DNA from: Apostichopus japonicus | Lineage: Eukaryota > Echinodermata > Holothuroidea > Aspidochirotida > Stichopodidae | Direction: 5' to 3' | Assembly (NCBI RefSeq): GCF_037975245.1 | Contig: NC_092580.1 | Location: forward strand, 30,161,501-30,225,500 | Length of the DNA stretch: 64,000 nucleotides | Shown: positions 35,682 through 64,000 of the stretch, one piece after another | Numbering within the stretch: the first letter of the stretch is position 1 | Layout of the letters: each line of letters starts with the position of its first letter | Translations under genes and position numbers: made by a program | Notes under the pieces: generated by a model | Database searches by the model: none | The model's input: the letters and a program-made list of their open reading frames with translations, nothing else | Told to the model about the DNA's origin: nothing

Positions 35682-35751
35682 GCTTGATCAACTGAAACCG
35701 TCGATGAGTTGTTAGGGCCACTTCATTACCTGGTACTGAAACCAGAACAAA

Positions 35752-38700
35752 ATGGCTTCTCAGAATGAGAGGTATCGTAAAATGCTTCAGGAGAAGGTGG
35801 AGTTGTTGGAAAATCAAAGAACGGAAGTGAGGGGTTACATTACCTCCATGATGGAAACTATAGACAAGGTTTGTGGAAAGAGCCCCTTTGGTGGTAACAA
35901 ATTTAAACGAAATTATTACTCACCAGTTCGTCTAGCACAGCAAAAATAACTCCGGTCCACTGGGTCGGTCCGTTGCGAAATAACTTAATTGAAAATATAG
36001 GATCCATCCATAATAAAAAGTTATGTTTAGATCCTTCACAAAATACGAAAAGTTAATATAAACGCAATGAAGGAATGCGGTTCCAATAAAAATATACCTC
36101 AAGCGGTCGGATATGAACGTTTCCCAAGCTAATAAGAATTATCCGATCGAAAGTAAATATAAGGCGATTAATGTAGGCGATTAAGTAAATATAAGGCGAT
36201 TAATGTAGGCGATTAACGTCGTTGGTAGCTCGTCGTGTTGAGCGGTCGAAGTCGAAAGTCAAAGTGCTGTAAGTTCGAACTAGCGATACCACAAGGGTAT
36301 TTGAGAGCGCTAACAGTTGACGGAAAGAGTAGTGGTGTCAAATTACGCCGCTACACCCCCTCATATGATATGCCTTTTATAGATTTGATTCTAGGCTACA
36401 ATTCTGGAATTGTGTCCAACATATAACTCAGCAGTTGATGGGACTTTAAGAAAGATCTAGTAAGCCTAGGAAACAATTGTCACCAATCAGATAATTGAGT
36501 TGTTTTTCTGAGGTACACTTCATTATCAATGTGTCCCTGTCACTGCCTTTTGAAGATGGAGGGAATCAAACATAATACATGTTCAGTTTATTTCCAGCAT
36601 AAATATTCTATCCCTGTTTTCTTCTTTCAGGCTACAGAGTGCTCTCAGAAGTTCATGAAGATTTCAACAGAATCAAAGAAGTTCAGGAAAAAGTTTCAGG
36701 AAGCAAACTCGGCAGTTGAGTCTGCTCTTGGCAATCTCCTTAAAATATCCAATGCCTTTACATCATCAAATGGTAAGCATTTGTCTGTATAAATTGTGAA
36801 CACTCAGAAAGTGAGTGTTACAATATTTGGTGTTTTTTTTTTTTATAACAAGTCCCTTTGGAGGTAGAATCTTTTATGTTTACAGTGTAAGTCATATGAT
36901 GCAACTGTATGTCTGTTATGAATATAAATGCAGTGGATCCATGATTTATAAAAAACAAAGAAAAAGCCCCTCCAAAAAAAGGAAGAAACTGACCTAATCA
37001 AAAATAGTTTTGGGTAATCAAAGGAGGACAACTAATGTTGTAAGCATGGGTAAAGTAATAGTTACTGTTTGGATAGAAGACAATTTTTGGTTAGTCCGCA
37101 TAAACATGAATAAGTTTCTGTATGGGGGTGAAGGTCAATGTTCAATCATGTGTGAAATTTTGGCCATACAAATCTCACAACATAGTAAACAAGTTGGCGG
37201 CATGTATCAGTCGTGAATATTATAAAACTGGTTTTCTGTGAGCGTCATAAGAGATTACAATCATATAAGTTACCACCAACTGAAAAGAGCACAATTGGTG
37301 TGTAACTATGTGTTGCTATGGTAATATTTATTTTGTTATAATTTTTTACAGGGGAGGGAAGTTTGTCCTCTTCAGAATCAGATTCTGCTACTGAATCCTC
37401 CAAACCATCAACAAAGATCTCACCAAGAAGAGATACAGGAAACTGTCCTGTGTCTGCATCGTCGAAACCCTCCAAGGGCTCCGAATCGTCGAGCCCGTCT
37501 TCAGCGAAAGATAAGGCGGACTCTGCCGAGAATATTGCCAATACCAGCCCAGGAAATCAGTCGCAGAAGGTATCCGTCCATATCGATGTCGCTTCGTTGC
37601 AACGAACAGTCTCCGTTGAGAAACCTGAGAGCAGGATTGTACAAGCCGAACCTGAGAGCAGGATTGTACAAGCCGAACCTGAGAGCAAGATTGTACAAAC
37701 CGAGCCAAACTCAAGACAGGATGCTCTCTCTCCATCCGTCCAGTCATTCTTAGCTTCCTTTCAAGATGTAGGTGTTCTGCATCAGTGTAAGGATGTGTCG
37801 GTGCCCATAACACAGCCACAGCCTTCTCACATGCCGCCTGCTGGTCATAGTCAGTTGAGGAGACCCGACATTGCCCAAATTGCAAAACATTCTCCACCTC
37901 GGGCAAGGACGGTGCACAACATGAACAAGCTCAATGGTGCTCCACCAAATGCACAGTTACATGTGGACACTCGAGGTGGTGCACAAGGTATCCCAGAGGG
38001 TCAAAGAGCTCAGCAGTTTCCACCACACCCGTCTGGTGTCGCTTCTTCTCACGCTACGCACCATCCACCGACGCCTAGTCCCACGTTCTCATCCCATTCC
38101 TCTGCGGGTGGGCTTAACCTGTCTCTTGCCAAGTCCAGAATACCTCTGTTATCACCGAGGTGCGGTGACCAGATCGAAGCAGTGATCAGCCACGTCGTCA
38201 GTCCGTCCCTCTTCTGGATTCAAGATAAGAGATCTTGTGTGATGGATCTTGTACAACAATTGAAGTAAGTCCCTACAGTAAGCATTGATCAATTCAGAGA
38301 TTTTTATGCCCCCTCTCCAGACATAGTGCAAGATAAGCTTGTAAAGAGATGCTGTGATACTACACTGCACTAATTCCTCTACCACAGTCATATACTAGAC
38401 TCATAATAATTTCACATTCTGGCCCACCTAAAAGACCCAACCGTTAAGATACATGTTGCATAGAATTGATTTAGCAACGTTTTCTTTCATCGTTACTAGC
38501 CCATGATAAAAAATAATATAGTGTAAGGTTACACACCCTGGGTAAGTGACGCGCATGAATTAAGGTGGTGTGTATGATTGAATGAATGCAACAAATGGTC
38601 ACCCTTTAATCATTTTGCTTGGTGCATTTTCCCTAGTCTGTTATTTATAATAAGTATACAAAATGGTTCCTTGCAGTAAATTAATATTCCTTGAACAAGT

Positions 38701-41700
38701 TATCAGACTCATCAAGAATCCTAAAGATTTCTCTCTTGATTTCCTAGCAACTTCTACAGCCAAGCTAACATTCCTATCCCCATTCCTGAACGAGGCCTTG
38801 TCTGCTGTGCAAGGTGGTCACTCGATGGAGGGTGGTACAGAGCTCAGATTGTAGGCAAGTGATATTTGCAAAACTTTACCATGACAATTTTTCAATTTGG
38901 TGATAAGTTTGTGAGAATGCCTGAGTTAGCAACAGCAAAGTGAATGATGTCATCGTGGCAATGGAGCTGAAAATGCTTTTTGTATGTTCAGTCATCCATT
39001 CACATAGGAAAGTAGTCTTGCTATAGCATTCTATAACAAAGTTGTATTTTAATGACATTCTGAATTACAGAAAACATTGACCTCTTTAACGTAAGCATTC
39101 CAAATGTATCGCATGAATTAGGACATTGTAATCCTGTCTAGTTATTACTCCTTAAAGTATCTGTATAATTCTGCTCATTCAACTTGTATTATATTTTTCT
39201 TTCTTCTTTTAACCAGGGAGTCTTCTACCCTGTTAAGCCAATTCAGGCTTTATATAAGAATTCCTTTCACATTGTAATTTTTTGTGATAAAACTAATAAA
39301 TAAACAAACAAACAAATTTCAAGGACAATTTAGTGATAAGATAGACAATAGGAGAGTAAAGTAATAGCATCTGCCATGATGACATCACAGACCACTAACT
39401 ACGTCGTTCCACTTCCTGGAGGAAAAAGGAGAGGATAGTCAGTCAAACTATGTTACTGCATCCATTCAACCATATCTCAAGATAAGCGAAAGATATGAAA
39501 TCTGTGTATTTTTCAACCGACATTGTGGAATATTTTTCTTCGTAAGTTAAACATTAAATCATTTCCGCCACCAGGGGTAACCATTTATTGTATCAGAAGT
39601 AGTCAATATTTTGCTTGTGTTGTCATTGTCTAGTTGCCTTTTCTTTTATCGATCAATAGACGTCCAGTACCCGATGCAAACCAACCCTAATTCAACCCAG
39701 CAAGACATCGTCGTTCATGTCTTCTTCATCGACTATGGCAACTCGGAGGCTTTGACTACCCGAAACATTCGCTGCCTCCACAAGAAGTTCTACGAGGTTC
39801 CGCCCTTAGCGTTGCGATGCGCCTTGGCACAGGTATTAGCCGTGTTGGGCGATATGATTAATGAACAATTGCGGTATTCTGCATGTCAGGTGTGGGTAAT
39901 GATGAGAGGCAGGAGAAACATAACATTATTTTTAACCAGACCTGGCTGGACTCTGGCAAACTGCCAGAAGCTAAGCTTTTTGTAAAACACATTTTTGTTG
40001 TAATATTTAAGAAAAACTTTCGCAAGTTATATTTCAGAGGCCACCTTTCCTGAAGTATGCTTTGAAACAGATCTGAAAGTTCCAGTAGAATTGAAAGTAT
40101 GCACACTTAGCCTAGCTTCTTAGTATTACTGGTGTAATATACTCAGTCAAAAATAGGATGGTGGAATTTTGCAGTACAACAAAGAATAAAAAAGATTGCA
40201 AGCCAGTTCAAAGTTTGTACCAGTTTGGGTGCACAAAAACACAGTTCTTTACAAGTCTGTTACAGAAGTGATAACCAAGTAATATTCATTTTGTTCCAAA
40301 ATCTGCCAAGACTGTGCAAGACTCAACTCTGTACGGACATTGCTAAATAACACAGCACTTTTTGTGGTGTACATTTTATTAATCATTTACTGTAATATTA
40401 ACAGAGATAGTTATACAAAACTGCTGTAACACATTTGGATTTGTGTTGCAACTTGTCTGTTGTTTTAATCTATGTTGATATTTTTGCAATAACAGATAAA
40501 TTCCTTTATGGAATAGCATCATAAACCTTTGTCCATATTTGTTTCTAAACCTTTCTTGTTCATAGATCACACCACCGCAGAAAACAGGTCAATGGACGAA
40601 CGAATGTAACATGTTCTTCAATGCGCTGTGCATCGACAAGTGTCTACGAGCTGATGTGGTGGAGTTAAAACTGCAACCAAATGGAGTAACATTTGTTAGA
40701 CTTTCTTTTTGCCAAGAAAGTAAACTCGAAGAAGGCGTAACTAGGGAAGAATTGGTAAGCTGTTTTAGAATATTAATTTTGTGATACTGCACTCATATTC
40801 CACTACACTCATACTCCGCACACTACACTCATATACCACACACTACACTCATATTCCACTAGTACACTCATATACCACACCCGACACTCATATACCACAC
40901 ACTACACTCATATACCACACACTACACTCATATTCTGCACACTACCCTCATATGACACTATACTCTACAAAATCAAAATCTGAACGACAACTTTTCCTAA
41001 GCCTACAGTCCTAGGGCTAGACAGTAGACACCTGAGCATATACATGTATCTAAGCCTACACATTAAAGTACATATCATGTGATTTATGTTCTCTTTCTCT
41101 ATGACGACAAGTGTAACATGTGTAAATTTGCTTTTTTCATGTTCTGTACAACTGCTTCCAAACATGGTATGTGGAAAACTATTTTATCAGTTTTTACTAA
41201 CTTTTCACAACAACAAAAACACAATAGTCACCGGGAATAGTTTCATGTTTGTTATCTTAATGGTTTTGAATTATCTATGTTTCTGTTTGTTTAACTCTTG
41301 TCCATTTTAATAGGGACAATATGTCCAGTAACAAATGCGCACATCCAGTCTACTTCTGTGTGTCCTCTTCGCAGGTAGATGTGGCAGAGCTTCTTGTTGA
41401 AAAAGGGCTTGCCAAGTTTATTGATAGCCGGGTAGTACCACACAGCCACATAGACGTATCACCAGCTACAGTAATTAAACCAGAGGCGCAAACACCGCCC
41501 AGTACCTCTGAACCGACCTCTGAGAGGCCGACATGGCCGGCATCTTCTACATCACAACGTTCCGGACAAACTGTTGAAAGAAGACCAGCAGGTAGCTGTT
41601 GTCTAAGAGAGGATTGCTTAAAATGCAGGATAATTTAAGAGTGTTGTTCCCTTTCTACCAGTGACCTGGTCAAATGATAAGGAATACTGCAATACATTTC

Positions 41701-44700
41701 ATAATTATGTACCTGAAATTGGAATTTCATAAAAAAAAAAAACATTTGGGAAAAGTTGTTGCTTACAGCCAATGGTATTCTGGAAATTCAATGTTATGGC
41801 ATAGGGTATCGAGTTGTATTGAGATCATTATGACTGTAACAGTTCATTCACACTGTGCAATGTTAGTGTATTCATACAGGCACCAGTAACACTGAGGGTC
41901 ACAGGATAATCATGTCCTTTGTGACCTCTTCATATTTCCAGCTCTCACATTTTCAAAGTATTTTGTTTCACTTGCAGCATTGGTGTTGGGATGGTTCATA
42001 GAATTTGCTGCCACAATGTATCTTGATGTATAAAAAGTTCTGTTATGCCAAACGAACACTGTTTTTACAATATTTTACCTTATATATCTGTTTTTCTTGT
42101 TTCTTTTAGTGAAGGAGGCAGAAGGAAAAACAATTTCTGAGCCTGTGAGAAAGGAAAATAAACAAACCACCAAAGCTAAGGGAAAGTCATCAGAGATGCA
42201 GACCAACTCCAATGAGAGCAATAAACTGGGAAAAGCCAAGAAAAGGCAAAAAGAGATAACTCTGAGAAAAGAACTTACCATCATTGAAGACAGGATTCTT
42301 GTGGCCATGTCCTTCATTGCTAACCCCAACGACTTCTACGTACACCTCATCGCGCCCGATGTCTTAGAATTTGACGCCCTCAACGACAAACTTCAAGAGC
42401 ATTACAACGACTCTAAAAACGTTAAAGCTATGGACAGTGCCAGAAGTTTGGGTGTGGGCGATTTTTGCTGTGCTAAGTTTGAGAAGGACTCCGGCTGGTA
42501 TCGAGGAAAGATCTTGGAAGTGAGAAGCGTGGGGCCGAAGGGGAAAAGCAAGTGGGACTTTATGGTGTTTTATGTCGATTATGGGAACTCGGAGTGGGTT
42601 TTGGAAACTAACGTGAAGCCACTGGTAGCTGAATTTTATGATATGCCGGCACAAGTTGTGAAGTGTTCATTGGCTCATGTGTCTCCTTTTGTGCCAGCTG
42701 GGAACAAAGACTGTAAAGGTGAGTAAGCTTTAATACCAAATATTACGGAATATATTAGCTTTAATACGAAATATGAAGAGGGGTGTTGAGACAAAGACTG
42801 TTTAACAAGACGGAAGTTATTAGTATCTTCAGATAGAGATAGTATACAAATAATGAATGGTTATGAGTGCAATAGTGCAAATATTTCATGAGTTGATAGA
42901 TGTAATTTATGGAACAAATTACATCTTTCATTATTTGTTTTATACAACATATTATATGAAGATGGGTAAAATGCACTCATGCAACAGATTGTTTTAAACA
43001 GACAGGTTTCTCTGCTCTCTTACCATTGAAAAAAGTGCTACCAAAAAAGTATAACCCATGGTTCGATTTCATAGAGTGGAATAGAGCGGATTTTGCATGC
43101 AATCAATGAGCAATTGACCAATCAAATGACCAGAATACAATTAAGTGTTTGTATAATAATGGTTAGTCTGTTGGAACTGGAACTTTAAGCAGTGGTTGGT
43201 ATGTTCAAACAGAGGCAGTAATGATTTAATATATTTGTACTAGGATAGCAGCAATTAAAAATGTCAAGCAGGGACAGTGGACAGTAGTGGTTAATATGTT
43301 CAAGTAGGGACAAATGTGGTTAGTATTGTTATTATTTGTAATACCCAGTTATTTTGTTTTCCATCCATTAGCGAAATGGTCAGAACAAGCCACCACAATG
43401 TTTAGAAAACTGACAGGATTCAACACAAAGTTGAATGGATTTTTGGTGACAGTCCCTGAGGACAAAAGGTGAGTTAATAATTAGCTAAGACAAGTCACAT
43501 GATATTTCTCTTCTTCCCATATCTACCCCTCTGACCCCCTCCCACCCTCTTCTTATTCCTTGTCCTTTTTTAAAGTAAAGATTGTCATCATGCAACAAAG
43601 TTTTAATAACTTTGAAAGAGAGTAAGATTGGAAACCAAAGTTTTTGTTACTATTGTTTTGGAACTGTATGAACTAAAATATGTCTGTTATAAATGAATTA
43701 TCACCCTCAAACCCTCATATATGTTTATGAACAAGTTTTCGGATAGAAGAATGGCTGAATTTTAGCAAAGACCAGGGGGCCAAAAAACTGTCCCCCATTT
43801 ATTCATTTTCCATGTAGCTCCCTTTAAATCCCAGAGAATATATCACAGGAGCTGATTCTAAAACGTAGTAGCGCCAAGCCAATCAACCAACTTTTCCTAG
43901 ATAATGGTGGTCCCCTGGTCCTGTGCCCACTTTTCACAAACCAAGACCCTTGGTCCTGGAAACCACAGTTTCACCCCCAGTTAAATGTTAATTATTTTTA
44001 TTTTGCAGTAAAGCTATAGAGCTAAACCTCACCATCAGCACCTCTCACATGGAAGTCTATGTCAACCAAGAACTAGTCAACCTTGGCTTGGCGTCGTCAG
44101 ACATTTTGAAGAAGGAGAGCGTAGAAGGTGAGTTTTTAAAAAGCTGAAATAAGCTATTTGTGCTTCAGCTACAAATCTTACAGGTGTATTCACATAATAA
44201 ATAAATAGAATGTGAAAAAAAGTTTGTTTCAAAGATGTTGTAGAAAAACTGCAAGGTTTTCTAGTAACTCATAGAAGAGCCTTAATACTTTACATTGTGT
44301 CTGTCATGTGAAATTGCTTTATCAGACAACCAACAAACTGTACCCAACACAAGGAACACTGAAACATTTCACAAATGTTTTTTGGTTAAAGTTTCTTTTC
44401 TCTTATGAGTACCCTATACTCAAACATACATTAATGAAGAAAAGTAAAAACATAGATTCACAGAGATTCTGTTTGCTTTTTACCTTCAGTGTAAGTATGC
44501 TACATCTGTCCTATTCTATTTGCTACGTCATGTTTGGCCTATATATAGGCCTACTATCCTTCTTTATATTCCTTTCTTTTTCCAATTTGATTTCGTAATG
44601 AATGAAGCAACAAAATTTCTGCATTTAACTTTTTAAGGAGTAAACTTGTCCTCCATGGCGTTCCAAGGTAGATAGTGATAGTGCATGACCAGTCTCCAGA

Positions 44701-47700
44701 ACACGCACATTGTCCATCTGAGCAATGTTGAGGCAAAATGATCCTTAAATTCCGTTGACAAGATGATAACAGGCAGCGTTTGGATAATGTCTCACATGGC
44801 TGTCTTAGTGCTTAAGGAATAATTCTGTGTCAGAGCGTCATAAATGAAATTATAGAAGCACAATTAATTCTCAACACAAACCAAGTGTAGGCTATAGGGC
44901 GACTACAACTAATGAGTTATGACCATTTCTAAGAAGTACTCGCTAATAGCATACACTAATAATAGTTGCAGAGTATACACACTCTTCCAGATCTTCTGCG
45001 TGATGGTTGTTAACATTTATTGTTTTCGTAAACAGATGATGAGCTAGAGATAGCATCTTCTAATTGGCTGAATCACAGATATCAAGAGGGAGGATATGCT
45101 GACTCAGATACAGGACTACCTGAGAGTCCAGATAGTCTTATGGATGCCTTGGCTAAACTTGACCCCATGGCAGTACATTACCATGCAGAGATCAATACAT
45201 ATGGATATGATGAAGATGACCCAGAGATGGCTACTATGGGCTACAGTAAGATCTGTTGTCATTTATGGTTAGATGAAAGGCCAGAAAACATAATAGGAAC
45301 CTGATCAAAGAAAACAGACAATGTGCAAGTAGTGAAGAATGGTAATTGACAAGAGACAAGGAAAATTAAACAGCCAATGGAGATTCCTTTCAGAAAATAA
45401 AATTGTCTCCTAGCAACAAATGCTTCTAAGAAGTAAAGTTTTGTGCTACAAATAGTGAGAGAAGAAACATGCTCACTTTTTATAGTCTTGATGATACAAA
45501 TTATGTATCAGTGGTGTCAATTGTTAGATCTTGTTCTTCTGAGGTAAATTTAACGTTTTGATAAATTTCTAACACAATAGTTAGCCAGTAGTTTATGCAA
45601 AAGATAAAGGCCTAGTGTTATAGAATATATTGTAGTGATACAAACTGTGAGTTGGATACTTTGTTTTGCATTTAACAGAATTGTACGTACTTTCATGTTA
45701 TTCTCCCTTCAATTACAGAGTCCAACTTGGACAAGAAAGTGTGCTACTTCCATGTATCAGGAAAAGGATGTTACCGTGGTGACAGCTGTCAGTTTGAGCA
45801 CCCTGATCCAGGTAGTATGCATTAAATTAATGCAGTTTCTTAGTTTTGTTATTGTATAACATCATGCTGCTATGAAATAAACAGTATGCTAATGGTTTGT
45901 AGTACTGAATGTGCTGTTGCTATGGTAATGCAGAATGAACATTTGTTATATTAGCTGTGCAGAATATTCTTTTTTAAATTTTTTTATTGCAGAATGCACT
46001 GTTTTTAGGTAAACACACAATGTACTATAGTTGTGATGGTACATATTAGTCCTCTGTTTATCTAACAATTACCACGGTATTACATGTTTAATACTAGAGT
46101 GGAACATTCCACTGAACTAAAAAAACTCAGTTGATATGGTTTTATGTGATCAGTTATCTTTTACAGATACATCAGTTTTGAGCCCTTGTCTGTGTGGGGT
46201 CTCATCCTTATTGCCTGTGAGATAAGCCAACTACAATGGCCAAATACATTCAAAAGTAACTTCTGGATGGTGGGCATGCCCTCTAATTTTCTTGGTGTCA
46301 CAGAAGGGGGTTGAATACCATGTGTTGACAAAAAAAAAACTGTTCAGAGTCTGCTATGATAGTAAAACCTTGAATGTCATAAGCTGACCACTTTTCAGTC
46401 TTTCCAGCATTTTGACAAGCTAGATGGTTTCATTTTAATCTATCACTATAAATAACCATACACTTTAGAGTCAAAGTGCAAAATATGTCATAATGTTATT
46501 ATAAAGTTCTGTTTTACTGTTGGTTTTTGTGTATATGGTTGCAGAGGGTTTGTAGAAGGCAGATGGTTGCAGAGGGCATATGATTGTAATGGGGTTATAA
46601 AGAAAAGGTTACGGCCTGTGAGGGAAAATTTGTCGTTTACAAATTCTAGAAAACAAAAGTGTGGCTTGTGTGCCTTGAATGTGACTCCTTTCTGTTATTA
46701 CCCACAGTCCCAATCAGGAAAAACATTCCTGCTGAGCCTTTGTCGAGAAAAAGACCCCCAAAGAAACTTCCAAAATGCACCAAGGCTCATGCTGTACACC
46801 AGTGGCTCGGGCTTCCCTGTCCAAAGACGAATAGTTGCGTCCAAGATCTGAAATGTTAGTCACACAACTATTAAACCTTGAAAACTGTGACCCTTGTAGG
46901 TCATAGGGAGGGGGGGTATGTTGTTTGCAGGAGTTCTTAATGACAGCTTGTACGTGATGGCATACGGTAAATTAGCTATAGTAAGGGCATTCAATGATAG
47001 CGGGGACGACAATCTTGCTGATTTTCCTTGGTGGGGTTATTTCTATCCCGCAGCTATGTGGTTTCATCAATGGTTTCACCAGATTCCACCAGAAATAGAA
47101 AGTATTACTCTCGTACAAAGTTTGGAAGTCAAACCGCTCGAGGAAGAAAACATTTCTTCAACCTTGCCCATGATTTTAATTTTGCTGTATAATTCCGCTA
47201 AGTAGGTGGAATAATCCAAGATACAAAATTGATGTTTCCTCGTTTCACAGTTTGCAATTTTGTCCATATTATTTAAGGTTTTGTTGATTAAAAATGAGAT
47301 TGAAATAGTGGTTACAGTTTGCTTTATGGACATGGCACCGACAGTGGTCTATCAGTGCAGCTTACAAATGTGTTACACTGTATGCGAAGTAACCCAATAA
47401 CACTGTACCAATTAAGTTTAGTTATGGCCCCAAATCATCTCTTTCAGAACTGAAAATGCCTAGCATTTCTTTCAATGACTTTGTAAACTGTACAAAGATT
47501 CCTATTTTGATGGATGAATGACCTCGTACCAATCCTTGTTTTTTCTTTTAATTTGAATTGCTGGAAAGTTGTGTTTGATATTCATTTTGAAGTCAAGAAA
47601 GAGTCATTTAGAATGGTGCAAAGCACCTACTCAAATGTGAAAGTCACATTCTTTCCAAAGTTGAGCATTGTACAAAATACTGGTAACCATGAAAGTTTGT

Positions 47701-50700
47701 GTGTGTTGGACTAAATTCTGTTTGGATGAAATATGGTACACTGCCTAACTACACATTAAAAGATGTAAATTACTAAAAATTTTCTTTTTCATTTTCTCAA
47801 TAAAATTTGTCATAATTTGACAATTTAATGTATTATTTTTAAAATTGAGACTGAAAATTACTAAAAATTTCTTTTCCATTTTCTCAATAAAATTTGTCAT
47901 AATTTGACAATTTAATGTATTATCTTATAAAATTGAGACTGAAAATTACTAAAAATTTCTTTTTCATTTTCTCAATAAAATTCGTCATAATTTGACAATT
48001 TAATGTATTATAAAATTGAGTCTGAAGAACGTTTCATATTTCTTTTCAGATGAAGTTAAAGATACCACCGATTGCTACTGCATCAACAATGTGGTAGATT
48101 TACTTCCCGAGGAGTCGGTTGTCTGCATCTTGGTCACAGCCGTGATTTCGCCCATCCACTTTTGGGTCCAGTTCGTCTTTGGGCCCACACCCTTGAAGCA
48201 GCTACAAATTCATTGCTCCAAAAGTCTGGACAGACCTTGGGAGGAGGGAGAGACACTGGAATCACTCAATGAGTCCATCAAGTAAGAAATGCTTGTGTGT
48301 TGTTGTTAAAAATTAATAGCTCAAAAAGTAAATGGTTTTTGACCCAAAAAAGAAGAACCTCATGCATCTTGATTGAAAATTACATTCAGTTCGAATATGC
48401 TTTTTTTCAAAGTATTTGCTAACTCAGGATTGTCACGTCTTATGTCAAAGTAAAACTTTAAATGGCTAATGAACTGATGATAAGTGAAACATTGTAATGT
48501 TGGTAGAATTCACAAAGATGGAGGTGACATCATGAGGCTCTTGGGAGGATGTTTCCAATTCAAGTCAACATAACTGGGATTTAAAGGATGACTTTAGGCA
48601 CAAGATTAATTTTAATTAATTATAAGTCCAGGTTGTATTTCTATATCACTTTTAATTTTTGAGAAATAACCCTTTAAAACCATACAAGGCTCATTAGTTA
48701 AAGTGGCTGAACTACTTAGTTTACACACCAGATGACTAGGTCAGTTACTCGGGTGCAACAAAAGGCTCAATGGGAAGCCATAGGACTGTCATCGCCTGAA
48801 CATGTTTATAATGCATTAGGATAAATGGTGTTGCATGTCCCTCAAGGGTGATCTGTTGCACATATGAAATAAAGAGAATCAGGGATGTAAGTCTTCCGTA
48901 TTTTTACGGAAATCCGGTTTTTTTTTTAATTCCAATAAGTCTTCCGTATTTTTACGGAAATCCGTTTTTTTTTTTATAATTCCAATAAAGTTCCACAAAA
49001 TTGTTCGAATATCAAAGACACAACGCGGCAAAAATGCCTGGCCCGTTGCAGCAAGCAAACTTCAATTTTCACTCATCGATCACTCAAAATACCATTTCCA
49101 GTTTCGCATCATCGCATTGCACTGTACAACATTGTGCCATGTGAATATCATTGCGTACGTGCGAACTTCAAATCGCTATAGCTCATTTCTGTCGTTGAAA
49201 AACCTTGCCTAATTCATGTTGATTGGACTGCTAATTAATACCTTCGTAACTGCTGGTGCTCGACATAAGTTTTGGAATTAACGCTTGTGATATTTGTGAG
49301 CGGCGGAAATCTACAGGATACGCATATGAAAGTCGATATTTGTGATCGCATTCGAATGTGAGACTTTTTTATTCCGTAGTTTCGCTGCGACGTATCCGTA
49401 ACTTTGAGCTAGCCTAACATAACGATAGTGTGTAAGTAGTAAGAACTAGGGGTAGGATGTGTTAGCGCTAATACTTCTAAGCTAGCCTAACATACAGTAA
49501 CGATAGTGTGTAAGTAGTCAGAGCTAGGAGTAGGATGTGTTAGGACGGCATTCACCTGGGGTCTCCGAATAATTTTCCGGTTTTTTTTTTGGCTGCACTT
49601 ACATCCCTGGAGAATATGTTGGTTGGGTTATTTGAATGCATTTAAAGGAATAGATTTAATAATTAGGCCTGCACTGAGGAGCTGATGCTATCATCATTGT
49701 ATCATTAAAGGAGCATACCAGAGATTTAGCTTCCTCTACTAGGTGAATATCTTAAAATTTGGAGTAGCTCACAAAGTCATCCTGCTATTTTATCTGCTAT
49801 CTGGCATGTTTCAATTGTTGGATTTTATTATTAATTTTTTTTTCCTTTTTTTAATTTTCCCTTCAGTAATAATTGCAGCAAGGGAAGTACAAAGAGCCAT
49901 GACATGACAATTCTTGCCTTAGGAGAAATTGTCTTGGCAAAGTACAGCAAGGACAAGAAATGGTATCGTTCCAGGGTTATCTTTGTGGATGAAGATAAGA
50001 TTGAGGTATGTGTCCTCACCAAGGTCAATTTAAGGTGGACTGATGAATTTCTTATCGGAAAAAGTTTCATCCGTGCTCCACTTTCCATCAATTCACTCTC
50101 ATAACTTTATAGTGACATTGTTTTGGAGGAATGCCGTGAAGTATTTCTTTTTGCATCAATCAGGTGCAATTTTGCTGCTAGTTCTGCCACACCAGTTATT
50201 GACAAATAACAACTTATCTTTAGGGTTCTTGTGTTTATAGCATTTGTGTGTTTATGTATGTTTATTTTATGTGTTTGAGTGTTTTTGCATTTGTGTGTTT
50301 ATAGCATGTGTTTATAGCAGTTATAAGCATTGGTACAACTTCTTTGAACGTGTTGCAGTTTCATGCTACATGTTGGTGTGTTTGTATTAGAGCATTTTGG
50401 GTGGGGGAAGGTGGGAGGGGGGTTAAGGTGTCAGACCAATTTTGTAGCTAGTACCACCTATGGTACCTGGCCCACATGAACGATATCGAATTGGAATGTT
50501 TTTGGGGGTGACACCTTTCCCCGGTGTTGGGTGCGATTGTATTTTGAAAACCAGCAGACTTTTTCAAGTTTTCGAAATTTCTGAAGTAACGTTTTACAAC
50601 ACCACTAAACACTATATAACTTGTGTGTATGACAAAATGACCATACATTGCCAGTCTTAGAAGCATCTATGTATATATGTATGTATTTTAGATCCTCCTG

Positions 50701-53172
50701 CAAGCAGGAACTCGCGAAGAAGCCATCATTAGCTTATCATAGCCTCAAGCTGACTGAAGTCAGTCCCTTACATTCATATTTAACGTCCATGATTATGAAT
50801 TGTCAATTGTCAACAACTCTGTAACTGGACGACATACATTAATCTTGGAGTGACTCGAACTCGGGACCTTATGATTGAAAGGCACTGGCGTTAACCACTG
50901 AGCTAACACTCCTTAAAGCGAGTCTGAGTAAAGCTACTACAACCGCTTTAGGGTAATAAATGTTGGTGTCTCTGTTTTGTTCAAGAACAAATTTGTTACG
51001 ATCTACACATCTGCAGTGATATTGACACAACACACTTGCACCATAGCCTCCGTCCAAATGTAGTTGGTGGTGAGAGAAGTAGCAAACGTAATGTCAATGC
51101 AGCTGTCAACCAACGTAATCAGCCGCTAGAACTATTTTTTGTTTCATATTTGTAAGGAAGTCTAACTCCTGTTGCAAGAAATTTGATTTCCTGGTAGAGG
51201 AAACTTGATTCTCGATAGAAGAAATTTGATTCTCGATAGAAGAAAGAAATTTGATGCCTGTTAGAAGAAAGTTGATTACTGGAACAAGGAATTTTGATTC
51301 CCGGTACAAGTAAATTTGACTGCAAAAGACCCATTGTTAATCCACAGCAATCGTCATACAATATATAAACCTAAACCTCCATCCAATTTTCTGATTTCTG
51401 TTCTTTCTGTAATCTTCAGGTGTTTCACGTAGATTACGGAACATCAGATTGGGTCACTAGGAAGGATGTTAGGCCAGCCTTACCACAGTTTCTACACCTT
51501 CCATTCCAGGCTGTTCAGTGTAGACTGGATGGCCTGGAGGAGAGTCAGGAATGTAAAGAACAGAGAGACAATTCCAGGTGAATATTCAAGTAATGTCTTT
51601 ATTCTTGCTTGGCCAAGTCAAATGTTGTCACAGAAATTCATTAAAGTTGATATACTATTTTAATGATTTGCGTGGAAGTTGAGAAGCAGCATTTGGTTTA
51701 TACCAGTAATAGCATAAAGTAGGGGTTCTTAATTAAGTTTCTGTGAGGGCAGAAATGAAACATTGGTTGATAAAATGTGCCAGAGACAACAATGTCTCAG
51801 TTTAACCTAGATTAAAGCAAGAAGTAGGATATACTGGGAAGCATGCAGCTAGTGGTGGTCAAGTGGTGGTCAAGCATACAGCTAGTAAGGGTCTGCATAA
51901 CTGATTAATGCGAGATTGTAAAACATTTTTTTCTTGGACTGGATTGAAATATTTCAGAGGCTAGATTAGGCCTGTTTGCCGCCAGTTGAGAACTCGTGGC
52001 TTATGGCATAGTGTATTCAGTACAGTGCAGACCTTACACTAATTTACTGGTTAATGGTTCCCACCGTCATTGCATTGGATATGTACTAGTGCTGCATAGT
52101 ATGGGATTTGCGAAAAGCAACTTATAAGCATTAAATCTGTAAATCATTGACAAATTGTGAAGCTAAACGTAAACTTTCTTTAGTATAACTTATAGATATG
52201 TATGATGATCTACTACATATGATGTATGTATGTATGATGATCTCATATGTATGATGTTACCCGAAGAATGTTGAATCGGCAAAATATAATTGACTTATCT
52301 TACCTGTCTCCAGTCTACTTATGCACTTTTCTCATTTTAGTACTCAGCCCTTAATCCCAAATTTTTATGGAAGACAGCATTAGTTTTGATCAGCCCCCAC
52401 CCCCTCCAATATAAAGAAATAAAAAAAATAAAAAAAATAATTATGGAAGGGCAGTAGATATTAGCTTTTTTAATTTTTTGATTAAACTGTTTCTTTTGTC
52501 CAAAGGAACTACTTTGAAGATGTGGCGACAGGTCACCCATTGGTGGCTTACGTTGTTGAAAGGTGAGCATATTATTTTTTTGTCTCGGTTTAACGAAAGA
52601 AAAGAGTTAAACAGGATGATCCTGTTATTGCTGTCATTTTGCTGTCAATATCCATGATTTCTTTTCTACCTCCGAGATTGACACCTCTCAATTTCCGTGA
52701 ATTTCTAACAATAGCATTGTATCATTTGATCCGTCGTTCGCATGTTTTTCATAACCTATGGATATCCAACCTGTAGGGGGGACAAAAACTTATCCTAGCA
52801 CACTGTAGCATACGCAAACTGGAGCCTATACCGCAATTTTTGCAAAGTTCCATGATTTTTTTTTTACCCCAAGCTCATCCCTGGTGCTTGCACGGATTGA
52901 CTTTTGCAATTAACTTCCCAAAGAAAGTGGAATTTACACATATACCGTAGTATGTATGACTCAGTGTGGAAGGCTAGTAGTAACCCCAGAAAAATAAGAT
53001 TCTTACTAACCTCCTTTCTTCTAAATTCCTCAGAGATATCGACAACCTCCTTTACCTGAAACTTTACAACACTAAAGGTGAAGAGGATATTTGCATCAAC
53101 AAAGCCTTGCTCGATAAAGGTTATTACCTACCAGGAGAAGTTGCTGAGAAAGGAGAGAAAGTTTCAAATTAG
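35752..53172 (+). CDS. multi-Tudor protein with CCCH zinc finger (18 coding exons, 1,285 aa)
   Basis: Exons: 35752-35868, 36631-36772, 37352-38264, 38748-38854, 39660-39832, 40566-40754, 41375-41591, 42110-42718, 43372-43468, 44009-44127, 45036-45245, 45719-45811, 46708-46854, 48050-48281, 49867-50005, 51420-51577, 52506-52562, 53034-53172. All phases agree and the total is 3,858 nt. Domains: helical N-terminus (1-85), Ser/Pro-rich linker (90-350), extended Tudor 1 (about 355-615; GGWYRAQIV, FFIDYGNSE), Lys-rich linker, Tudor 2 (about 680-895; SGWYRGKIL, YVDYGNSE), CCCH finger C-x8-C-x5-C-x3-H (about 972-991), Tudor 3 (about 1050-1270; KKWYRSRVI, HVDYGTSD). Extended Tudor domains bind symmetric dimethylarginine on Piwi-type proteins and scaffold germ granules. 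Tudors 1 and 2 keep the D-Y-G-N motif; Tudor 3 has Thr instead of Asn. There is no helicase, KH, MYND or LOTUS part. TDRD12 also combines Tudor domains with a helicase, which is absent here, so I leave the gene unnamed. A 5' UTR begins at or before 35682. Confidence 0.9.
35869..36630 (+). other. intron 1 of the Tudor gene with a direct repeat
   Basis: It contains a 34-bp direct repeat, aagtaaatataaggcgatta followed by atgtaggcgatt, at about 36150-36215, and a stretch (35880-36360) with unusual composition that may be a transposon fragment. The open frame at 36235-36426 has no recognisable product. Confidence 0.35.
37624..37704 (+). repeat. coding minisatellite, three 27-bp units in exon 3
   Basis: Three near-identical units cctgagagcaggattgtaca + agccgaa encode PESRIVQAE, PESRIVQAE and PESKIVQTE in the disordered linker of the Tudor protein. 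The period is a multiple of three, so copy changes keep the frame. Confidence 0.95.
38855..39659 (+). other. GC-AG intron (intron 4 of the Tudor gene)
   Basis: Exon 4 ends CAGATTGTAG and the intron starts GCAAGT, the consensus of the rare GC-AG class. Only this boundary gives phase 1, which matches exon 5 (AC completing GAC) and restores the conserved Tudor strand ...WYRAQIVD. The nearby GT (GTGATA at 38859) would shift the frame. The intron also holds an aaataaacaaacaaacaaa LINE/SINE-type tail at about 39295-39317. Confidence 0.85.
40781..40965 (+). repeat. ~20-bp minisatellite in intron 6
   Basis: About nine imperfect units of the type cactacactcatataccaca (variants with tattccac or tactccg). 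It lies 27 bp downstream of the exon 6 donor. Confidence 0.85.
42843..43155 (-). mobile_element. MITE-like element (TATACAA ends), copy 2
   Basis: Inverse-orientation relative of 26791-27186, sharing ggttatgagtgcaatagtgc + aaatatttcatgagtt, atgcactcatgcaacagattg, ctctgctctcttaccattga and gcggattttgcatgcaat. It has lost most of one hairpin arm. It sits in intron 8 of the Tudor gene, 125 bp after the exon. Confidence 0.6.
45719..45811 (+). other. CCCH zinc-finger exon of the Tudor gene
   Basis: Exon 12 alone encodes KKVCYFHVSGKGCYRGDSCQ then FEHPDP: cysteines spaced C-x8-C-x5-C and a final x3-H. This is the standard CCCH (C3H1) spacing found in RNA-binding fingers. The exon is bounded by phase-1 introns on both sides, so it is a symmetric module that could be skipped or shuffled without changing frame. 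Confidence 0.9.
47769..48027 (+). repeat. 88-bp tandem repeat, about three units, each with AATAAA
   Basis: Units begin near 47771, 47859 and 47947 with tactaaaaattt and contain ttttctcaataaaatttgtc and ataatttgacaatttaatgt. The last unit ends about 20 bp before the exon 14 acceptor tract. AATAAA occurs on the sense strand at 47799, 47886 and 47974. Confidence 0.95.
48880..49609. mobile_element. hAT-like non-autonomous element in intron 14
   Basis: The ends CAGGGATGTAAGT and ACTTACATCCCTG are inverted repeats, flanked by GAGAAT on both sides (48874-48879 and 49610-49615), shorter than the usual 8 bp. The left part carries a repeated palindromic ttccgtatttttacggaa (about 48892 and 48942). A cgatagtgtgtaagtag + gctaggagtaggatgtgtta type segment is duplicated at about 49415-49545. 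Confidence 0.7.
50691..50912 (-). repeat. tRNA-derived SINE in intron 15
   Basis: The minus strand begins GGAGTGTTAGCTCAGTGGTT and carries the B-box CCGAGTTCGAGTC, with CACTCC pairing back to GGAGTG at 50846-50851, so the tRNA-like head spans 50846-50912. The anticodon stem does not pair, so it is not a functional tRNA. A ~150-bp body ends in tgcttgcaggaggatc and a (tacatacata) tail at about 50670-50690. Confidence 0.65.
51175..51315. repeat. ~21-bp degenerate tandem repeat in intron 15
   Basis: About six to seven imperfect units of gaaatttgattcycgrtaga type (gaaacttgattctcgatag, gaaatttgatgcctgttag, gaattttgattcccggtac). Confidence 0.8.
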
Positions 53173-53317
53173 GACCAGGAGACAACCAGAACGTTGTTGA
53201 AGCTGATTCAACCTGTCAATTAAAATGCCATGTGGACTCGTGATTATTTCATCTCTCTCTCAAAAAAGGACATGTCTGCTGGAATTTAGTCTGTAGTTTG
53301 TTTCATTTCCACTCACA

Positions 53318-53580
53318 TGCAATGGATCATATCCATGCAATGGATCATATCCATGCAATGGATCATGTCCATGCAATGGATCATATCCATGCAATGGATC
53401 ATATCCATGCAATGGATCATGTCCATGCAATGGATCATGTCCATGCAATGGATCATGTCCATGCAATGGATCATATCCATGCAATGGATCATGTCCATGC
53501 AGTGGATCATGTCCATGCAGTGGATCATGTCCATGCAGTGGATCCTGTACGTGGAATGGATCATGTCCAATGGAATGGAT
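53318..53580. repeat. 18-bp minisatellite, about 14 units
   Basis: Units are atgcaatggatcatatcc with variants (gtcc, gcag). Each unit holds ATCCAT-GCA-ATGGAT, a small inverted repeat, so the array can fold into a series of hairpins in single-stranded RNA or DNA. The last units diverge (cctgtacgtgga, aatggatcatgctgatgg). Confidence 0.95.
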
Positions 53581-54025
53581 CATGCTGATGGAAATGATCA
53601 TGGATTTGTACTTGCACTTTGGAAGTCTGGTATAAATACTACTGCAAGAATAAGTCCTCATACTTCCATCCTGTTTGCATGATGTTGTATTCCTACTTCA
53701 TGGTTGTTGTACATGTAACGCTCTAACTACAATGTGTGGTTAACAGGTACAAAGTTTTTGCCTGTGTGGATGTGTAGAAAATGTCTTCTGATTTATTTGT
53801 TCAAAGTTATATTTGAAAAGGGAATATTGGAAAGAGCTTAAAGAACAGTGAAGTTGATCCCTAAAGTTTTCCCACATCTGTTTTGTTGGTTTTGTTATAA
53901 TGGAAGAGGGAATGGGTTGGGAAGTCATGGTACAATGTCTTCTTCTGTCACCGCACAATAGAAGTAATACCAAGTAGGGATAAATTCTGGAATACTTAGG
54001 TCTTTAATGCTGCATATATGTTAAC

Positions 54026-59200: not shown

Positions 59201-62200
59201 TTAGTTCTGCTGGCTATGACTCGTTTCTCTTCTTCTGGCCAAACGCTCCTTAGCTGCATCTAACAACTTTCTACGTAGAGTCTGTAACGAAAGGTAAAAG
59301 TAAACAAGTCAGCGATGGCAATTCATGACATATGATGGACCATCTGCCTGGGTATCAAACATTGTTTGAACACAAACCTAACAGCTCCTTTGTTGTATAA
59401 GGAGAACAACAGGACATCAACAAAGCATTTCCGGCACAAATATTTTTCTTCCCTACCCCTTCCCTTAATCCTCTCTTTGTCCCTCCACTGTTTATCTCCT
59501 ACCTCTCCTCTTCCCCTGTTGGTTTCTTTCTTCTCTCCATCCCTTGTCTACTAATCCCCTTACACATATCTCTTTGTGTTCACCATGCTCATTAACCTGT
59601 CTGAATTCTGTGTGTGTTTTTGTCCCTTCTGTTACTGTTACTTGTCATTTAGCCTTTGAAGAAGATCCTGTTAGGATCGAAACGTCAGGCCAACTTACTT
59701 TTACACATACAAATATTTATACATAGCCATGATCCACCCACAATGTCAGGGTTGATGTTTATTCATTAGCCTACTTTGCATATCAATCAGAACAAGGGCT
59801 GACATTGTTATTAGCTGTTGAGTCTAAATACCAGTTTAGCTACGTTTTTGGAATGTGAAGGAACTTCTCAAAAAATGTGCACAGAAGGTAACAGTAGTTA
59901 TATGAAAGAAACCTGAGCAAAGTGAAAATTGATTGTAATCTACACAATCTATTTTCATCATTCTCCCCTTTCCTATTCCTTCACAGTATATATCTTGATC
60001 TACTTTGCCCAAAAAACCCTTCACTTTCACTTCATCAAGACTGACTCTCAACTTTTTAGATTAAAATAGTATCTTTGTATCAATCTACAAAATCTAATAC
60101 CCAAAACTTCAAAATTCAGGTCACTTAAAAAAAAAAAAATGTTTTTGGCACTTTCTCATTTTTTATCTTAAGAAACACAACCGTCTTTGAACTCTTACCC
60201 TCCACTTGAGTTGCACGTCTCTCCTCATTGCGGCCTGGCTTTTAGTCATGACTTTGTGAACCAGAACTGCTTTCACTTCTACATACTCGTTATTCGTCAC
60301 ACGACCTGCATCTACCGTGGTATCTCCTTGAGCCGAGACGTTCACCAACGGTATCTCAGAGCTCTCACTAGCACTCGCCATGGAATCTTCATCCTTCTCT
60401 CTGCTAGGAAACAACATTCCAAGAAAAACAGAAGAAATTTCAGATCAAATATTTGCTCTTGAAAGTAGAGCTACAAGGTGCCATAATGAATGGTTTTGCA
60501 AATGTTGACTCTGAAATGATGAAACCTCTGAAAATTGACTGTATGATGGCATTGATTAGAATTTCGACATTGTTAACATTCTTACCTTGAAAATATGAAA
60601 AGAAAAAACAGAGAGAAAGTAAACGGTTTTAGATCCTACTGGCAATACGGCATCATAGAGGTACGACTATGACATCATAGAGGTGCGACTGTGACATCAT
60701 AGAGGTGCGACTATGACATCATAGAGGTGCGACTATGACATCATAGAGGTGCGACTGTGACATCATAGAGGTGCGACTTTGACATCATAGAGGTATGACT
60801 TTGACATCATAGAGGTGCAACTTTGACATCATAGAGGTGCAACTTTGACATCATAGAGGTGCGACTTTGACATCATAGAGGTGCGACTATGACATCATAG
60901 AGGTGCGACTTTGACATCATAGAGGTGCGACTTTGACATCATAGAGGTGCGACTTTGACATCATAGAGGTGCGACTATGACATCATAGAGGTGCGACTAT
61001 GACATCATAGAGGTGCGACTATGACATCATAGAGGTATGACTTTGACATCATAGAGGTGCGACTTTGACATCATAGAGGTGCAACTTTGACATCATAGAG
61101 GTGCGACTTTGACATCATAGAGGTGCGACTATGACATATTTGAGGTGCGACTTTGACATCACAGAGGTGCGACTTTGACATCATAGAGGTGCGACTTTGA
61201 CATCATAGAGGTATGACTTTGACATCATAGAGGTGCAACTTTGACATCATAGAGGTGTGACTTTGACATCATAGAGGTACGACTTTGACATCATAGAGGT
61301 GCAACTATGACATCATAGAGGTGCGACTATTACGTCATAGAGGTGCGACTATGACATTATAGAGGTGCAACTATGACATCATAGAGGTGCGACTTTGACA
61401 TCATACAGGTGCAACTGTGACATCATAGAGGTGCAACTATGACATCATAGAGGTGTGACTTTTACGTCATAGAGGTGCGACTATGACATTATAGAGGTGC
61501 AACTATGACATCATAGAGGTGCGACCTTGACGTCATAGAGGTGCGACTGTGACATCATAGAGGTGCAACTATGACATCATAGAGGTGCGACTATGACATT
61601 ATAGAGGTGAAACTATGACATCATAGAGGTGCGACTATGACATCATAGAGGTGCAACTATTGCATCATAGAGGTGCGACTGTGACACCATAGAGGTGCAA
61701 CTATGACACCATAGAGGTGCAACTATTACATCATAGAGGTGCGACTGTGACACCATAGAGGTGCAACTATGACATCATAGAGGTGCAACTACGACATCAT
61801 AGAGGTGCGACTGTGACATCATAGAGGTGCAACTTTGGTGTCATAGAGGTGCAACTGTGGCATCATAGAGGTGCGACTGTGACATCATAGAGGTGCGACT
61901 TTGGCATCATAGAGGTGCAACTGTGACATCATAGAGGTGCAACTATGACATTATAGAGGTACAACTATGACATCATAGAGGTGCAACTATGACATCATAG
62001 AGGTGCCACTATGAACAAGAGGTGTGACTGTGACATCATAGAGGTGCAAACTATGACATCATAGAGGTGCAAAATGACATCATAGAGGTACAAAATGACA
62101 GCTCCCAGACAGGGTATTTAAACTAAGATATCTCCCAAACGGAACAAGGTTTTTCTTTGCTGTTTGTGGGAGTGGTTCTTGGCAAAGATCTCTGTCATGG

Positions 62201-63328
62201 GAGTAAAAGAAGATGGTTACACCAATCACTAGAGCAGTGTCGACAAAACCTTACCTCTCAGACTTCGCGGCAAACATTTTTGCGAGGAGCGGCTTTTGGT
62301 GGACACGGCGGGCTTTTTGATCTCTGTGAACTTTTATGTCGGACGAGTAACTCTCACGAAGCTTCACTAAAAATCTCCTTGGAAGAGATCTCTCGATGTT
62401 AAGAATGATCATGACCCACTGTAAAGAGATGACAACAGAAAGAATGAATATTCTCTGATTAACATGACATGTATTTCTGTGTAGTTTATCTTGACCTTTT
62501 CTCTACTTTATGCAGACCATTCTAGAGCCCTGTTTGTTGACAAGAGTATTTTCTGATAAACGTGACATGTATTTTAGTGTAGTTTACCTTGCCCTCTACT
62601 TTATGCAGACTATTCTAGAGCCCTGTTTGTTGGCTGGAATATTCTCTGATCAAACTGACATGTATTTCAGTGTAGTTGACCTTGCCCTTTACCCTACTTT
62701 ATGTAGACCATTCAAGAGCCCTGTTCGTTGGCAGGAATATCCTCTGATCAAACTGACATGTATTTCAGTGTAGTTTACCTTGCCCTTTACCCTACTTCAT
62801 GCAGACCATTCTAGAGTCCTGTTTGTTGGCTGGAATATTCTCTGATTAACATGACATGTATTTTGGTGTAGTTTATCTTAACCTTGCCCTCTACTTTATG
62901 CAGACCATTCTAGTGCCCTGTTTGGTGGCAGGTATATTCTCTGATTAACATGACATGTATTTCAGTGTAGTTTATCTTGCCCTCTACTTCATGCAGACCA
63001 TTCTAGTGCCCTGTTTATTGGCTGGAATATTCTCTGATTAAACTGACAAGTATTTCGGTGTAGTTTACCTTGCCCTCTACCCTACTTTATGCCGACCATT
63101 CTAGAGCCCTGTTCGTTGGCAGGTATATTCTCTGATTAACATGACATGTATTTCGGTGTAGTTTACCTGCCGTTTCCATTCCATCAGCGATCTGTCTTGA
63201 GTATTTTGAAATGTTCGAGTCATCATGGCGATCATCATGTTGAACAGCAAGAGAGGAATCGCGATCAAGAAGATCCCAAATATTAAGAAAGTGAAAGTCC
63301 CGAACCGGGAGAAGATCATGTCGTTAAA
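59201..63328 (-). CDS. TRP-family cation channel, C-terminal part (four exons; continues past the right edge)
   Basis: Minus-strand exons: 63328-63167, 62418-62255, 60400-60199, 59281-59201, all joining in phase and encoding about 202 residues to a TAA. The first exon encodes the late pore/S6 region: FNDMIFSRFGTFTFLIFGIF, then hydrophobic LIAIPLLLFN, NMMIAMMTRTF and MEWKRQ. The next continues WVMIILNIERSLPRRF. The N-x-x-I-A-M-M-x-x-T-(F/Y) motif followed by W-x-x-x-x-x-x-I-L-x-x-E-(R/K)-S is the S6 / post-S6 signature of TRP channels, closest in my judgement to the TRPV group. The tail is Arg/Lys-rich with an acidic Ser-rich stretch (KDEDSMASASESSEIPL) and ends RRRETSHSQQN. The protein would sit in the plasma membrane or an organelle membrane. 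Upstream exons lie beyond 63.3 kb; a 30-nt candidate microexon (about 63652-63681) is too short to trust. Two of the introns hold large tandem arrays. Confidence 0.8.
59641..59730 (+). repeat. dispersed-repeat-like motif with hairpin
   Basis: gatcctgttaggatc forms a 6-bp stem followed by gaaacgtcaggcc. Similar hairpin-plus-GAAACGTC text recurs in retroelement-associated repeats of many invertebrates; that comparison is from memory. It lies in the last intron of the channel gene. Confidence 0.3.
60651..62101. repeat. 22-bp minisatellite, about 65 units
   Basis: The consensus unit is gacatcatagaggtgcgacta + t, with variation mainly at gcgact(a/t/g)t. Nearly every unit contains TGACATCA, and a few contain (T/A)(G/T)ACGTCA, for example cttgacgtcatag at about 61527. 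The array lies between the second and third listed exons of the channel gene. Confidence 0.97.
62449..63166. repeat. ~97-bp tandem array, eight units, abutting the S6 exon donor
   Basis: Units share attctctgattaacatgaca, tgtatttcagtgtagtttac, cttgccctctactttatgca and gaccattctagagccctgtt. The array ends exactly at the GTAAAC donor of the S6 exon (63161-63166, minus strand), so each unit carries a version of that donor region. Confidence 0.92.
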
Positions 63329-64000
63329 CTGCGGTGAGAAAAGATAATATGAATACAACAGTGATATCAATGATAGCAAACAATGTTAATATATCAACTG
63401 AGGCCTTCATACACAAAGTATCAATATTCGTTTTTAAATTTCTTACATAACACAATAGAAAAATATTTAAAGAGAGAAAGGAAAATAGCATGTACACAAT
63501 CATAGATCTTTCCAAACAGGTTTATGGATTTGAGAAGGGGGACTTTAGTGCATTGTTTAAAAAATAAACAAAAACAAACCATAAAGAAAACAAACAAACT
63601 TATGTTAGCCAACACTATGGAGAAGGGGGGAACACTATTCATCTTACCAATACTTCTCCACAACGGAACTCCTTTCCCTGAAATTACAGCATTGCACCAA
63701 TGTTATTTAGCATTACGTAAGGTAAGTTAACCCAAGAAAAAATACTCTGTAACTATTGTCTACCTAATTTGAAGCTTGACACATTGGCACAAGATGCCCA
63801 TTGCTAAGGTATACAAATGTAGAAAGCTCATGGAATTATAGGATGCAAATTGTGGCCTGGATTACATTGGTTGAGATGTACTCCAGCATCTGTAACCTCA
63901 TACATCTCCAATCTAGACCGACAGGTATCCGATTATGTGTGAATGTAATACGGCTTAGTAAAGAAGTCATCCAACAACATGTTACAGCTGTTGGGACATA
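63329..64000. other. upstream intron of the channel gene
   Basis: It begins right after the acceptor CTCACCGCAG of the S6 exon (minus strand) and is AT-rich. A 30-nt minus-strand segment between ATTTCAG and GTAAGA (about 63652-63681) is the only exon-like piece. It could encode GKEFRCGEVL in phase 0, which I do not regard as proven. Confidence 0.4.

Follow-up and report, generated by a model that had tools for sequence, protein, structure and literature searches.

Multi-Tudor proteins of the piRNA pathway collect arginine-methylated PIWI proteins in nuage, and Tudor scaffolds determine which RNA goes to which PIWI protein. TDRD1 and TDRKH-type proteins are known PIWI-binding scaffolds. TDRD12 and Yb are likewise Tudor proteins of the piRNA pathway; a CS domain is a feature of TDRD12, and in some TDRD12/Yb proteins a CCCH finger precedes a Tudor domain. 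Each described system has its own set of partner domains. In the passages cited throughout this work, TDRD1 combines a MYND finger with four Tudors (PMC9002060), TDRKH/Papi (TDRD2) a KH domain with a single Tudor (PMC12147562), and TDRD12/Yb proteins possess a DEAD helicase, a 2025 survey table giving TDRD12 a single Tudor next to it (PMC12147562). The same table lists CCCH and Tudor domains for Drosophila Krimper (PMC12147562). According to the cited part of a study of this protein, its N-terminus is self-interacting and its two extended Tudors bind Ago3 and Aub: Aub is held via the canonical extended Tudor, and unmethylated Ago3 via an altered one, eTud1 (PMC8249470).

Here we describe a gene of the echinoderm Apostichopus japonicus whose closest known design is that of Krimper, a precedent overlooked in the sequence-only reading of this DNA. 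The resemblance is one of parts, and orthology is not claimed. The gene lies on the + strand at positions 35752-53172 of the analysed stretch of 64,000 nucleotides (C20:30161501-30225500, hereafter the window); the genome searched amounts to 671.6 Mb in 35 contigs. An exon model, built by hand from open frames, splice-site scores and phase, contains 17 exons and 3,669 bases, encoding 1,222 residues and a stop. These figures replace the 18 exons and 1,285 residues proposed earlier, while the span and the domain order are retained: a heptad-like N-terminus, a Ser/Pro-rich stretch, extended Tudor 1, extended Tudor 2, the CCCH finger and extended Tudor 3. Exons and domains are distributed as follows (window positions).

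35752-35826 and 36631-36772, + strand: exons 1-2, start codon and heptad-like N-terminus of about 70 residues
37352-38264, + strand: exon 3, Ser/Pro/Gln-rich stretch, after which Tudor 1 begins
38748-38854, 39660-39832, 40566-40754 and 41375-41591, + strand: exons 4-7, Tudor 1 being carried by exons 3-7
42110-42718, 43372-43468 and 44009-44127, + strand: exons 8-10, Tudor 2
45036-45245, + strand: exon 11, acidic linker from Tudor 2 to the finger, placed by phase fit and codon score
45719-45811, + strand: exon 12, CCCH finger
48050-48281, 49867-50005, 51420-51577, 52506-52562 and 53034-53172, + strand: exons 13-17, Tudor 3 and stop
38161 to 41410, + strand: extended Tudor 1, residues 343-545 (Pfam TUDOR at 343-469)
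42274 to 44126, + strand: extended Tudor 2, residues 661-880 (Pfam TUDOR, 82.7 bits in the exon 8 frame)
45742-45801, + strand: CCCH finger with ligands C959, C968, C974 and H978, within a single short exon (exon 12)
48121 to 53172 including the stop, + strand: extended Tudor 3, residues 1006-1222 (from PDB matches)

Pfam TUDOR covers three stretches of the joined protein (240.1 bits, E 4.9e-72), which bears out the three extended Tudor domains of the sequence-only reading. Among solved structures, Tudor 1 best matches TDRD1 (4b9w, E 1.7e-16, over residues 4-192 of its 203). For Tudor 2 the best match is 5vqg, described as a Tudor and KH domain-containing protein homolog (E 2.5e-16, residues 9-163 of 220); it also matches TDRD1, with an alignment reaching residue 195. 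Tudor 3 is closest to TDRKH (6pi7, E 4.2e-14, residues 64-208 of 217) and matches another PDB chain from residue 4 onward. The domains are thus predicted to hold a Tudor core with flanking nuclease-like halves, the make-up of an extended-Tudor (T3) scaffold. NCBIfam returned nothing relevant for exon 8, nor for the finger together with Tudor 3.

To place the aromatic cages we used the pocket spacing of Krimper eTud1 (positions 373, 380, 397 and 400), as given in the cited passages of PMC8249470. Tudor 1 (W400, Y407, F435 and Y438, with N440) and Tudor 2 (F729, Y736, Y760 and Y763, with N765) each have the full aromatic set and, judged by residue position, both possess a dimethylarginine cage. 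In Tudor 3 the cage is altered (Y1085, Y1092, H1108, Y1111 and T1113): three of the four aromatics are present, a His occupies the fourth place and Thr replaces Asn. The Asn found at this site in the other two domains (N440 and N765) presumably has a role in the cage.

The finger, placed between Tudor 2 and Tudor 3 as had been read earlier, shows there the motif C-x8-C-x5-C-x3-H (C959-x8-C968-x5-C974-x3-H978). This motif exceeds chance: when the protein is shuffled, the loose spacing pattern C-x7-9-C-x4-6-C-x3-H turns up in 64 of 20,000 cases. With the isolated exon, Pfam zf-CCCH_4 reaches 22.2-22.6 bits at E ~1e-4 (8.5e-5 for 22.6 bits), slightly missing its cut-off of 24.6; in the whole protein the score is 15.6 bits (E 0.014). 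Among the solved structures of the PDB, the nearest fingers come from other CCCH proteins and score no better than E 0.05. At the other end of the protein, the N-terminal 66 residues display a heptad-like hydrophobic spacing, whose a/d score, a simple heptad measure, is matched by 48 of 5000 shuffles. Exon 3 further includes an in-frame tandem repeat (37622-37703), three copies of a 27-base unit that translate into three 9-residue units.

Thirty TUDOR matches with E up to 0.001 were found in the genome. Three of them are exons of the studied gene and 11 sit in one frame of contig C9 (C9:6662500-6671800), which is open over 2,482 codons, holds 11 Tudor domains and, we take it, has a layout like Drosophila Tudor/TDRD6. 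Another Tudor cluster, on C5, adjoins a MYND match (C5:6408172, 27 bits, E 0.0044, above the cut-off) and is on this ground a candidate TDRD1 gene, separate from the one studied here; a strict motif scan of the C5 flank (L017) did not find the MYND again. With the finger and Tudor 3 as a query, the best match outside C20 was a C9 Tudor at 31% identity. As there is no close second copy, the gene looks single-copy and distinct. Piwi-domain exons, which count in favour of a piRNA-type role, occur at three loci of this genome, with 11 matches when PIWI and AGO are pooled.

We also built a tree of 29 Tudor cores, all from this genome, joined roughly by eye; neither the Tudor pieces of C8 and the additional ones of C21, nor the piece L016, nor the weak matches on C2 and C17 are part of it. 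The support for pairing Tudor 1 with a C13 core is 0.24; Tudor 2 branches with the cores labelled TDRKH and AKAP1 (0.74), and Tudor 3 next to a core of C21 (0.63). The labels TDRKH (C4), AKAP1 (C15) and SND1 (C1) were given by eye from motifs typical of these proteins, and are presumed. The three Tudors cluster neither together nor firmly with any gene; standing apart in the tree, they are not recent repeats.

We propose that a single intact gene at this locus encodes a piRNA/nuage-type scaffold with several Tudors, which holds PIWI proteins and RNA in a Krimper-like manner, and we give this reading a probability of roughly 0.62. The N-terminus may self-associate via a helix that we posit from the simple heptad score. 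With the cage residues seen in Tudors 1 and 2, these domains would recognise N-terminal PIWI motifs that carry symmetrically dimethylated arginine. Because His and Thr sit in its cage, Tudor 3 may favour arginine peptides of another kind or without methylation; Krimper eTud1 and TDRD2 serve as the analogy. The finger might contact RNA in single-stranded form, for instance slicer products or the precursors of piRNAs; CCCH fingers may alternatively be structural or protein-binding. In this way the protein could bring two PIWI proteins and RNA together in a single granule, as Krimper brings together Aub and Ago3. Having Krimper-type parts and a third Tudor, the gene product plausibly works like Krimper. 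The germ-granule adaptor suggested by the sequence-only reading, with an RNA-binding finger between dimethylarginine readers, agrees with the domains and with the intact cages of Tudors 1 and 2; the function itself we infer.

A fuller version of the scaffold would be a deuterostome adaptor of Krimper design, with a self-associating N-terminus, two methyl-arginine readers and an altered-cage Tudor, and with an RNA finger set between Tudors 2 and 3, which couples methylated and unmethylated PIWI proteins and hands over RNA. In all its details this version is tentative and, on balance, doubtful. If it is true, the Krimper-type ping-pong adaptor is not an insect invention, and is either ancient or evolved twice.

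The likeness to Krimper concerns the parts present, a CCCH finger and extended Tudors; the place of the finger among the Krimper Tudors is not given in the cited passages. The N-terminus, self-interacting in the cited description of Krimper (PMC8249470), has here the heptad-like spacing noted above. On the other hand, there are three Tudors here and two in Krimper, and the altered cage is that of eTud1 in Krimper but of Tudor 3 here, the first Tudor having a full cage. Against the PDB chain 7cfd_B ('FI20010p1' in the PDB list), which we take to be Krimper eTud2, Tudor 3 scores E 0.0023 and Tudor 2 E 0.58, and Tudor 1 does not appear among matches listed up to E 1. The length of this chain, 186 residues, fits Krimper eTud2 at 562-746, a span given in the passages of PMC8249470.

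A stronger claim would make the gene a true orthologue of insect Krimper, in which an extra Tudor was gained or kept. The types of parts are the same (heptad-like N-terminus, CCCH finger and extended Tudors), and Tudor 3 alone of the three matches 7cfd_B below E 0.01. A review, as far as cited here, terms a mosquito Tudor protein a putative Krimper orthologue (PMC9962485), so the design would not be limited to flies of one genus. However, TDRKH and TDRD1 fit Tudor 3 far better (E ~1e-13), the Tudor-core tree gives no resolution, and the passages cited do not confirm how Krimper's finger is placed relative to its Tudors. A mosquito study moreover suggests, in the part cited, that Krimper originated from a duplication within Drosophilidae, or else that its counterparts disappeared or became too divergent to be recognised (PMC6411831). 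Orthology is unlikely in our estimate; we do not claim the gene as a Krimper, given that it departs in Tudor number and cage order and has a weak sequence link.

The joined frame runs from the ATG at 35752 to the stop ending at 53172, with no internal stop, and is open across all 16 junctions. The start ATG has a favourable context (AACAAAATGG) and an in-frame TGA immediately 5' of it, the frame opening at 35740. The intron after exon 4 (38854) is of the GC-AG type; donors are weak at exons 5 (39832), 11 (45245) and 12 (45811), as is the acceptor of exon 5 (39660). A codon-use score, trained on 3,226 codons of the Tudor loci on C9 and C5 versus the introns of the studied gene, is positive in the model frame for 17 of 17 exons. 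Stop-free intron segments of equal length reach the score of the exon in 0-6.5% of cases for the 15 exons that allow such controls, exons 3 and 8 being too long; the highest rates are 6.5% for exon 9 and 4.8% for exon 4. Another sense frame outscores that of the model in exon 1 (7.4, with two stops) and exon 4 (9.9, with one stop), and an antisense frame does so in exons 2, 4, 5, 13 and 16, with one to three stops each. Exon 12, which carries the finger, has a second open frame with no stop, at 4.5 vs 2.9 for the model frame.

Overall, the locus is apparently a real and intact gene, and its exons probably form a single transcript. The point at which they could be divided lies around the finger, yielding two adjacent genes, one for a two-Tudor protein (exons 1-11) and one for a CCCH-Tudor protein (exons 12-17). 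An intron of 2.2 kb follows exon 12, the weak donors of exons 11 and 12 are found here, and the frame of exon 11, if read on, meets a stop at 45302-45304. Yet exons 11, 12 and 13 fit in phase, and no Met precedes the finger in the open frame to which exon 12 belongs, so that this exon is unlike a first coding exon. Such a division is improbable, and we keep the single gene for a Krimper-like scaffold.

Partner domains of other Tudor proteins were sought around this gene. None of the 50 DEAD matches listed genome-wide (from 49 of 135 candidates scored) falls in the window, nor does any of the seven CS or 49 MYND matches listed in the genome, and of the five families that Pfam lists for the joined protein none is KH. 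Motif scans of the open frames at window positions 20000-64000 gave no DEAD-box motif, MYND or RING, and six Walker A-like strings. Within this scope, the absence of a helicase, KH or MYND partner noted by the sequence-only reading is upheld. With TDRD1 the gene shares the scaffold logic, and it is a solved TDRD1 domain that Tudor 1 matches best; the MYND finger of TDRD1 has no listed match in the window. TDRKH-type proteins are the best solved relatives of Tudors 2 and 3, whereas a separate TDRKH-like locus, labelled by eye, is present on C4.

We searched the genome for a helicase-Tudor pair as co-located DEAD, CS and weak Tudor matches, and saw none in the fetched stretches of C13, C8, C22, C6, C3 and C5; because 49 of 135 DEAD candidates were scored, the absence of such a pair from the genome stays open to doubt. 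A helicase-less relative of TDRD12, for which the sequence-only reading argued from domain order, is very improbable and finds no support here: DEAD and CS matches are lacking among those listed for the window, three Tudors stand against the one that accompanies DEAD in the cited 2025 table (PMC12147562), and the Tudors find their best relatives of solved structure in TDRD1 and TDRKH. TDRD12 itself was not located in this genome as a standard of comparison, which weakens the rejection.

The Krimper-like scaffold has an unusual architecture built of known parts, the combination of CCCH and extended Tudor having its precedent in Krimper. Within the passages of an open-access subset of the literature we found no Tudor-Tudor-CCCH-Tudor protein in print, which is weak evidence of absence. 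A sea urchin study puts the number of Tudor proteins at 15, of which eight bear TDRD annotations (1, 3, 4, 5, 6, 7, 9 and 12), and its cited passages mention no CCCH-bearing Tudor form (PMC12925329); a counterpart of our gene may figure among the other seven. For other fly nuage proteins the cited table of PMC12014135 names a Tdrd-type counterpart; its entry for Krimper is a dash. With a CCCH and Tudor scaffold in an echinoderm, the age of the Krimper-type adaptor design becomes testable, and sea urchin embryos have, according to the same passages, already been used to image tagged TDRD proteins (PMC12925329).

Some further features of the genome and of the window may be recorded. Judged by eye against known COX1 sequence, the mitochondrial COX1 of C35 gives a normal protein with AAA translated as Asn and ATA as Ile, as in the echinoderm code (table 9), and a poorer one under table 5, which marks the genome as that of an echinoderm. 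COX1 is matched a second time at C29:14745-31219, in five pieces, perhaps a rearranged or misassembled mitochondrial copy. Just 3' of the stop codon, an array of about 15 copies of an 18-base unit (window 53316-53584) leaves several frames open on both strands. Two other tandem arrays follow, at 60651-62089 (22-base unit, about 65 copies) and at 62446-63175 (98-base unit, about 7.6 copies). Finally, an exon at window 63104-63382, on the - strand, resembles an ion channel at its pore end (Pfam Ion_trans scores 23.4 bits for a cut-off of 25); TRP-like by eye, it likely belongs to a neighbouring gene on the opposite strand.
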